This document shows positions 28,061-29,590 of a stretch of 64,000 bases of DNA, in pieces (within the stretch, counting starts at the first letter, position 1; each line of letters begins with the position of its first letter). Position numbers and translations under genes: made by a program. The DNA lies in contig CANQAR010000001.1 of NCBI GenBank assembly GCA_947588845.1, positions 62,001 through 126,000 on the forward strand. Direction: 5' to 3'. The notes beneath the pieces were generated by a model that did no database searches, was not told the origin of the DNA, and worked only from the letters and a program-made list of their open reading frames with translations. This DNA comes from an uncultured Lachnospiraceae bacterium. Lineage in GTDB: Bacteria; Bacillota; Clostridia; Lachnospirales; Lachnospiraceae.

Positions 28061-28089
28061 TTGTCATCCCCGGAGTTTTCTGTTATACT
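28061..28089 (+). promoter_or_regulatory. Probable promoter of the CapK-like gene
   Basis: TTGTCA - 17 nt - TATACT. Confidence 0.7.
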
Positions 28090-28105
28090 GCACAGGATAA
28101 ATGCC

Positions 28106-28249
28106 GTTACAGTTCACTCCCCCGTCAAGCTCGAGGTGATTTCCGAACATCTTGTTCGGAAATCCCGAGGTCTGAGGCGCGAAATGCCACGAACGTGGCA
28201 TTTCTGTGCATCGCGAAGCGCTGTTGCTGGTCACGGAGTGAACAGTAAC
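28106..28249 (+). mobile_element. MITE-like non-autonomous element (repeat family B), 144 bp, with 8-bp target site duplication TAAATGCC
   Basis: Left end GTTACAGTTCACTCC (28106-28120); right end GGAGTGAACAGTAAC (28235-28249), whose reverse complement GTTACTGTTCACTCC matches 14/15. Flanked by taaatgcc at 28098-28105 and 28250-28257. No ORF of significance inside. Confidence 0.88.
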
Positions 28250-28279
28250 TAAATGCCGCAGATACAAAGGAGAATGCTC

Positions 28280-29590
28280 ATGTCTTTACAAATCCAGAAA
28301 AAGCTGATGAACGTCACGACGTTCTTTTATCTTATGAGACTCGAAAAAAATTTTAACCGAAACCGCCAAAAGCTCAAGGCCCGGCAGAACAAAAACATCC
28401 GCAGACTTATGAAGGCCGCCTGGAAAATACCGTTCTACCGGAAACGTTTTGAAGAAAGTAATCTGCGCCCGGAAGATTTTAAATGCAGCGAGGACCTTGT
28501 CCGGTTTCCGGTTCTGACAAAAGCGGAACTTCGCGAATGGATGAGAGAACTCTATGAGCAGAACCCCGGCAAGCGGGATCTCTGGGACGCGACCAGCACC
28601 AGCGGTTCTTCGGGGATCCCGCTGAAGCTTTACCAGTCTCAGCGCGAGCACGCAATCGCGAACGCCAGCTGGATCCGGATCCTGATGAGCTTTGGCTACG
28701 ACCCGTTCTTCGGAAAAATGATTTCTTTCGAATCGAGCTACCGCGACACGAAGACCAGGCGAGATTCCGTTGTGCAGAAACTTGGAATCCTGCAAAGGCG
28801 TATTCTTTCCGAAAAACGGTGTACCGACGACGGCATGGACGATGTCATCCGGGAGCTGAATGAATACCGGCCGGACCTGATCTGCCTGCGCAAAAACTGC
28901 ATCGTGCGCCTCGCTCTGTACGCGCAGGAACATAATCTCCCCGTACATAAACCCAAATGGTACATACCGGTCAGTGAGATGGTCGATGAGATGACGGAAA
29001 ACATCCTTGCAAAGACATTCGGCGCCGGCCTTGTGGACGCCTATGGCTGCGATGAGACAGGAAGCTGCGTTGTAAAGTATCCCGGCAGAAAGTACTACGA
29101 TATCTGCAATGACACCCACGTCGTGAATATTTACGATGAGCAGAATCACCTGGCCGACAACGGAAGAATGATTCTGACCCCTCTTTATAAGACAGATTTT
29201 CCGATCATCAATTACGACGTCGGAGACCTGGCCTCCTCCTTCACCTGCGAGGGAATCCGTTATATCACAAAAATTCACGGCAGGCTCAACGACATGATCC
29301 GGCATGAGGATGGAAGCGAGTCGTCCGTGCTGGAGCTCCGCAAGATTCCGAACGGAATCACCGGAATCGTCCAGTTCCGCTATGTTCAGGAATCCTTCCA
29401 TGACCTGCGGGTTGAGCTTGTGCGCGATCCGAAGGATCACACTTACACGGACAGCCAGATTGAAGAATTTTTCAAAAAACAGATTGAGCAGCTCTACGGG
29501 GATGAGTTCCGCATTTCTGTTACATGGATGGACGTCATCCCGCCGGATCCAAACGGAAAGCTGCGCTGTTTCGTATGTAATGTACAATAA
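28280..29590 (+). CDS. Phenylacetate-CoA ligase/CapK-like AMP-forming adenylate-forming family protein
   Basis: TSTSGSSGIPLKLYQSQRE...DAYGCDETGSCV...YDVGDLASSFTCEGIRYITKIHGRLNDMI. Start placed at 28280 because AAAGGAG (28266-28272) lies inside the ORF-track extension. Confidence 0.88.
   Translation: MSLQIQKKLMNVTTFFYLMRLEKNFNRNRQKLKARQNKNIRRLMKAAWKIPFYRKRFEESNLRPEDFKCSEDLVRFPVLTKAELREWMRELYEQNPGKRDLWDATSTSGSSGIPLKLYQSQREHAIANASWIRILMSFGYDPFFGKMISFESSYRDTKTRRDSVVQKLGILQRRILSEKRCTDDGMDDVIRELNEYRPDLICLRKNCIVRLALYAQEHNLPVHKPKWYIPVSEMVDEMTENILAKTFGAGLVDAYGCDETGSCVVKYPGRKYYDICNDTHVVNIYDEQNHLADNGRMILTPLYKTDFPIINYDVGDLASSFTCEGIRYITKIHGRLNDMIRHEDGSESSVLELRKIPNGITGIVQFRYVQESFHDLRVELVRDPKDHTYTDSQIEEFFKKQIEQLYGDEFRISVTWMDVIPPDPNGKLRCFVCNVQ

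Follow-up and report, generated by a model that had tools for sequence, protein, structure and literature searches.

Bacterial miniature inverted-repeat transposable elements (MITEs) are usually regarded as debris whose folding is accidental. Like other bacterial MITEs, MITEAba12 is non-autonomous, is derived from or mobilised by insertion sequences (IS), and is flanked by target-site duplications (TSDs) (PMC6382973, PMC10969869). The BOX and RUP elements of Streptococcus pneumoniae are short, intergenic and present in high copy number; they carry terminal inverted repeats (TIRs), and their folded transcripts can lengthen 5' leaders. BOX is modular, both elements are thought to be moved in trans, and they are centred on pneumococcus and its close relatives, with no mention of covariation or compensatory change in the paper that describes them (PMC3049150). 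The Correia/NEMIS elements of Neisseria are MITEs that lie inside transcripts, where the folded RNA is cut by RNase III (PMC10969869). A review of MITEs raises riboswitch-like or sRNA roles as possibilities, and names neither IS66 nor Clostridia (PMC10969869). Among IS66-family elements, ISDge4 of the ISBst12 group has a single transposase ORF, GTxACTxxTCA-type ends with the TIRs GTGACTACTCAGCA / GTAACTGCTCAGCA, and the 8-bp DR CCTCGATG (PMC12898284). In the literature searched, which left most subscription journals outside, we found neither an IS66-mobilised MITE nor a description of the family reported below.

Here, we have analysed a 144-bp element within 64,000 nucleotides of DNA from an uncultured Lachnospiraceae bacterium (the window is this whole stretch), and we conclude with high confidence that it is a MITE, apparently moved by an IS66-type transposase and very probably sitting in a transcribed leader. 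The best reading is that it belongs to a new MITE family, unusual for a conserved RNA-like core. Unlike BOX/RUP, this family spans ~30 genera and shows compensatory changes and near-invariant junctions, and it differs from Correia/NEMIS in both sequence and mobiliser. Its partner IS resembles the ISBst12 group in having a TIR GTTACTGTTCAC of the GTxACTxxTCA type and an 8-bp TSD, and in a full-length relative of this IS TnpC is the only transposase gene detected. Unlike that group, the 144-bp element has no transposase, being a non-autonomous passenger that would depend on such an IS.

The features of the locus are collected in Table 1. A previous reading of the sequence without database searches had described a 144-bp element with 15-nt TIRs (14/15 complementary) between exact 8-bp repeats, and our re-reading and repeat search agree with it base for base; the TSD amounts to nine identical bases when the next G is counted. 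The element was said to have no coding capacity, and indeed lacks a transposase gene and is overlapped by chance ORFs only. The strong hairpins claimed for its interior are two perfect ones, of 12/12 pairs at 28138-28164 and 11/11 pairs in core part 2, the latter with an almost invariant G-U pair and a bulged U at its base. The predicted RNA fold of the whole element has -66.9 kcal/mol (z = -6.3), which none of 200 dinucleotide shuffles equalled. Scans of the element found neither an intrinsic terminator (a stem followed by a T-run) nor a promoter, and the 4227 covariance models of Rfam gave no match to this region of the window up to E = 1. What marks a MITE is found here: a length below ~500 bp without a transposase gene, TIRs and a TSD, dispersed copies and empty orthologous sites.

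Table 1. Features of the element and its surroundings (window positions)
Feature	Position	Strand	Basis or remark
Sigma-70-type promoter TTGTCA-17-TATACT of the PaaK-like gene	28061-28089	+	Scan and conservation in congeners
Left TSD TAAATGCC	28098-28105		Direct reading; 8-bp TSDs are the rule among sister copies
144-bp non-autonomous IS66-type MITE	28106-28249	+	Conserved RNA-like fold lies on this strand
Left TIR GTTACAGTTCACTCC	28106-28120	+	Repeat search; matches left end GTTACTGTTCACTCCCCCC of the IS66 partner
Core part 1, CGAGGTG - hairpin 1 - TCCCGAG	28132-28169	+	Near-invariant junctions, covarying stem
Core part 2, GCGC - hairpin 2 (28181-28204) - TGTGC	28177-28209	+	Alignment
Mini-hairpin CGCGAAGCG, GNA loop	28212-28220	+	In most, not all, family members
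Right-end module GTTGCTGGTCACGGAGTGAACAGTAAC	28223-28249	+	Holds a nested imperfect TIR copy
Right TIR GGAGTGAACAGTAAC	28235-28249	-	Repeat search
Right TSD TAAATGCC	28250-28257		Direct reading and repeat search
RBS AAAGGAG	28266-28272	+	Direct reading
PaaK-like adenylate-forming ligase, 436 aa	28280-29590	+	ATG at 28280; orthologues in the genus

That the element is mobile is indicated by its relatives in the same genome (5.06 Mb, 280 contigs), where a search returned 43 matches, or about 40 related copies, which adjoin unrelated genes. The 12-mer GTTACWGTTCAC occurs 160 times in this genome, compared with once for a reversed control pattern. When TIRs were paired by script, 37 pairs had both flanks readable; the 8-bp TSD was exact in 19 and had one mismatch in 10, so that 29/37 carry a duplication with at most one mismatch. 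One copy (C82:4183-4326) is 100% identical to the element and lies at a different target site between ACCGCTAT repeats, and so one or both copies must have moved recently. Recent mobilisation had been proposed in the sequence-only reading, together with a search for further copies with matching ends, of which there are multiple, each with its own 8-bp TSD. The lengths of full copies group at 143-144, 152-154 and 187-196 bp, and these classes differ by whole modules, either an alternative right end, ACGTTCACGACCTGCAAGGGAG, or an extra 41-bp hairpin unit. In the 187-196-bp variants L023, L035, L042 and L118, the common extra 41-bp module CAGAAAAGCCTCCAGTGGAGGGTTTTCTG is found at one core position, and the family is therefore modular.

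Thirty copies, taken from this genome and from four congeners, were aligned; their junctions are invariant and their stems vary, and a covariance model was built from the alignment. Of 397 genomes of the same bacterial family that were sampled, 33 in 30 genera contain relatives recognised by this model, often at least eight each; a model of the core only again gave 33/397. Outside the family there were only weak matches (G759, G794, G562), all without the core pattern. The consensus reads (Y)CCGCGAGGTG - hairpin 1 - (T)CCCGAG - linker - GCGC - hairpin 2 - TGTGCA - (TCGCGNAGCG) - right-end module. When 52 diverse members are compared, pairing holds in 96.5% of pair cells, and 27 of the 45 pairs have changed on both sides. 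Double-change cells number 317, where shuffles gave 84.7 +/- 8.6 and slid structures 29-53, and the unpaired junction motifs are nearly invariant. This conserved, covarying interior common to ~30 genera goes beyond what the earlier view of a single sequence had offered. A few of the weakest matches to the model have a different body on the same ends. Four loci carry this second type (L269, L271, L273 and L274 in G283, G437, G396 and G116; 1501-1634): the ends are again GTTACTGTTCAC and the right-end module is shared, but the body consists of hairpins that surround a conserved motif similar to AAGAAARTGATTCAGGAG. The IS66 ends seem to serve more than one kind of folded body.

One could argue that the core acts as a regulatory or small RNA of use to the host or to the element, for which the IS66 ends are a mere vehicle. 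The strong covariation speaks for this, as does the fact that 30 genera share one fold and its junction motifs although the TIRs vary between genomes with both arms changed (e.g. GTTACCATTCAC, GTAACTATTCAG, GTTACTTTTCAC, GTTACAGTTCAG); the ends, we infer, may track the local IS66 elements. In other genera, copies between codirectional genes are in sense orientation 11 times and antisense 3 times, a count that relies on crude gene calling and is suggestive only. In the genome of the window, however, copies lie 7 times sense, 10 times antisense and 9 times between divergent genes; this is no orientation preference, and therefore no cis-regulatory role has been selected at individual sites. Taken with the 11:3 elsewhere, no site-by-site regulatory role is indicated. 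An apparent avoidance of convergent gene pairs (0/26) was dropped, as these make up only 7.9% of intergenic bases at baseline (P = 0.12). Also against a functional RNA are the lack of a promoter identified inside the element and the lack of an Rfam match, 11 relatives giving only matches far below gathering scores. Among the loci inspected, the core is always inside intact or recognisably decayed TIR elements, most of them with an 8-bp duplication of 7-8 matches, and none of these loci places it in a conserved position or away from mobile ends. The core therefore appears to belong to the mobile element and not to be a captured host RNA, and we regard the functional-RNA explanation as rather unlikely. 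More tentatively than our main reading, and still short of even chances, the core could be a previously undescribed structured RNA that travels in IS66-type mobile ends across a whole bacterial family. If true, it would be a selfish or useful mobile ncRNA in which the fold and not the sequence is selected, with ends re-tuned to the IS of each host.

At which level the fold is selected can be approached through the pairs that deviate from Watson-Crick pairing. TIRs must work as DNA, and their deviations are 12 G-U and 13 A-C. In the core, G-U outnumbers A-C by 93 to 5, or by 44:5 without the near-invariant G-U position, in a covariance-model alignment of related sequences that is fitted to an RNA model and leans to its own structure. 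When G-U and A-C are treated alike in the alignment, hairpin 1 keeps the asymmetry (15:2), whereas hairpin 2 has none (3:4). The core is more stable on the + strand in 48/52 sequences. The G-U excess in the core but not in the TIRs, together with the more stable + strand, points to selection on the + strand RNA, and we favour selection at the RNA level with moderate confidence.

The same data have to be weighed against a fold that matters as DNA, in which palindromes are kept by template switching or by the need for a cruciform or single-stranded hairpin in transposition, and covariation is a by-product. The hairpins are near-perfect palindromes, hairpin 2 has no G-U excess in the symmetric comparison, the copies in this genome have no orientation bias, and the mini-hairpin CGCGAAGCG includes GCGAAGC, a sequence known to form an unusually stable mini-hairpin as DNA. 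However, copying would mend a DNA palindrome to perfect, while the pair at the base of hairpin 2 is G-U in 49/52 sequences and A-U in the other 3, and a separate member (L266) has a compensated C-G version, GCCC/GGGC. The restriction of the G-U excess to the core and the conservation of unpaired junction motifs also speak against this reading. A need for hairpins is not known for IS66-type DDE transposition. We consider selection on DNA structure unlikely.

The partner of the element was traced through contigs that end near a GTTACWGTTCAC-type 12-mer. They share two repeated ends, GTTACTGTTCACTCCCCCCTCTCAGGC in 6 places and GTTACTGTTCACACGTCGGCTTGAAAGG in 11, and for every one of the six left ends there is a right end on a different contig that shares the exact 8-bp flank (AAATTTTT, TTCATCCT, CCGGACAG, TAATAAGA, AAAGCGGA and AAACTTTC). 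Both ends therefore belong to one insertion sequence, which has multiplied recently and disrupted the assembly; it is broken at contig ends in this genome and never whole. Its ends are GTTACTGTTCAC, and one right end (C20) runs into the 267-aa C-terminus of a transposase that matches DDE_Tnp_IS66 (E 2.6e-21). Relatives in named genomes are mostly from Lachnospiraceae, and from the records with the closest of them the family whose 397 genomes were sampled is very probably Lachnospiraceae. Full-length ones have ~2.25 kb and matching TIRs, and in one of 2251 bp (L173; TSD AAAGCAGC) a 571-aa TnpC (PF03050, E 3.9e-25) is the only transposase gene detected, a domain search of it finding no TnpA or TnpB domain. 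The single-ORF layout is read in this relative, the copy in the genome of the window not being assembled in full. The search for an IS with the same ends that the sequence-only reading had recommended thus leads to an autonomous IS66-family element with an 8-bp TSD. It is likely that the mobiliser is a single-transposase element of the ISBst12 type with GTTACTGTTCAC ends, and we infer from these shared ends that its TnpC moves the MITE in trans.

An ordinary internal-deletion derivative of an IS66 element, with meaningless hairpins, would share ends and TSD length with the IS, as the MITE does. The overlap is nevertheless confined to the outer ~12-18 terminal bases, with no recognisable sequence in common with either IS end beyond ~18 bp; the MITE is therefore a passenger that borrows the ends and not a simple deletion product. 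The interior is also conserved far beyond the shuffled and slid controls, and a deletion origin is very improbable.

Two other candidate partners were rejected. The end GTTACTGTTCACTCC leads to an IS1634-like transposase (C12), but that element has its own ends, CCTGAGTTTGGAAG, so it had inserted beside the tip of a MITE. A separate complete IS66 element with three ORFs (L165:4803-7576; G000:C125) has the ends GTAAACGTCAAACC, which differ from those of the MITE.

The element stands upstream of a gene that had been called CapK-like and is better described as encoding a PaaK-like (phenylacetate-CoA ligase-like, adenylate-forming) enzyme. The promoter proposed for it was recovered by scan, and its hexamers recur at the right spacing with no mismatch in 11/20 congeners and with one mismatch in 5/20, i.e. 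in 16/20 together. No element is present within the 260 bases upstream of the orthologous gene in these 20 congeners, so that the loci without the element that were to be looked for do exist, at species distance and not strain distance. The nearest leaders (L196, L197) have the same promoter without the element, and L197 retains CCGCAGATACAAAGGAG, which here directly follows the insertion point. Since the conserved promoter lies upstream, the insertion is a few bases past the expected transcription start, and the element is very probably within the transcribed leader, judging from a promoter conserved across congeners. The element makes practically no difference to the predicted pairing around the RBS and AUG (e.g. 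mean unpaired 0.55 vs 0.55 for 28096-28340), and in most models RBS accessibility hardly changes. The position between conserved promoter and RBS would suit a riboswitch or other fixed, non-mobile leader element of the PaaK-like gene, but this reading is refuted by the orthologous leaders without it and the about 40 copies beside unrelated genes.

We propose that the TnpC of an ISBst12-type IS66-family IS in the same genome would recognise the MITE ends in trans, each insertion duplicating 8 bp, and that one such insertion landed a few bases past the start predicted from a conserved sigma-A promoter. The PaaK-like mRNA would then carry the element as a self-folding leader. As the predicted fold is self-contained, leaves the RBS free and does not form an intrinsic terminator, we expect it to affect the gene only slightly; the likeliest effects would be on mRNA stability or RNase III processing, and cutting of the leader by RNase III is plausible by likeness to Correia/NEMIS. 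The family may owe its persistence in many genera to selection on its body for a single fold, most likely that of the + strand RNA. Such a fold could keep inserted copies self-contained in host transcripts and hence cheap for the host, a cost-lowering role that we put forward as a doubtful conjecture. In a family of ~30 genera that keeps its fold by compensatory changes and junction motifs while its TIRs change between genomes, the function of a folded MITE transcript becomes a directly testable question. The analysis also gives a searchable covariance model for a family without an Rfam match that is able to sit in promoters and leaders.

Several further observations concern the spread and decay of these elements. 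No close relatives were found on plasmids, and a single scan of viral contigs for an exact motif gave no match. Relatives 86-87% identical to an element of G161 lie on two unannotated 'Bacteriophage sp.' scaffolds from human feces (MT836813.1:5093-5237 and MT838670.1:4240-4382; L335, L336); this could reflect either a phage vehicle or misbinned bacterial DNA. Within the window, positions 1590-1669 hold the truncated left half of another copy (80 bp, 82.5% identical), flanked by CAGGATTT / CAGGATTT. TIR-only units of 27-37 bp, resembling the right-end module, stand alone in the same genome, for example one of 27 bp at L032:1104-1130 and one of 37 bp at L086 (C10:42009-42045). The latter, with the near-perfect 8-bp duplication TTTCCCGC/TTTTCCGC on its flanks, could represent a minimal mobile unit. 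Finally, L022 (C252:42-185) and L032 (the end of C90) have an identical right flank; the MITE is intact on one contig, and on the other the IS end CAATGTCATTAAGTTTAGGTAACGG lies within its TIR. The same IS end is found at a MITE tip on further contig ends (C2, C60, C130 and C188), and this IS appears to target the MITE TIR.
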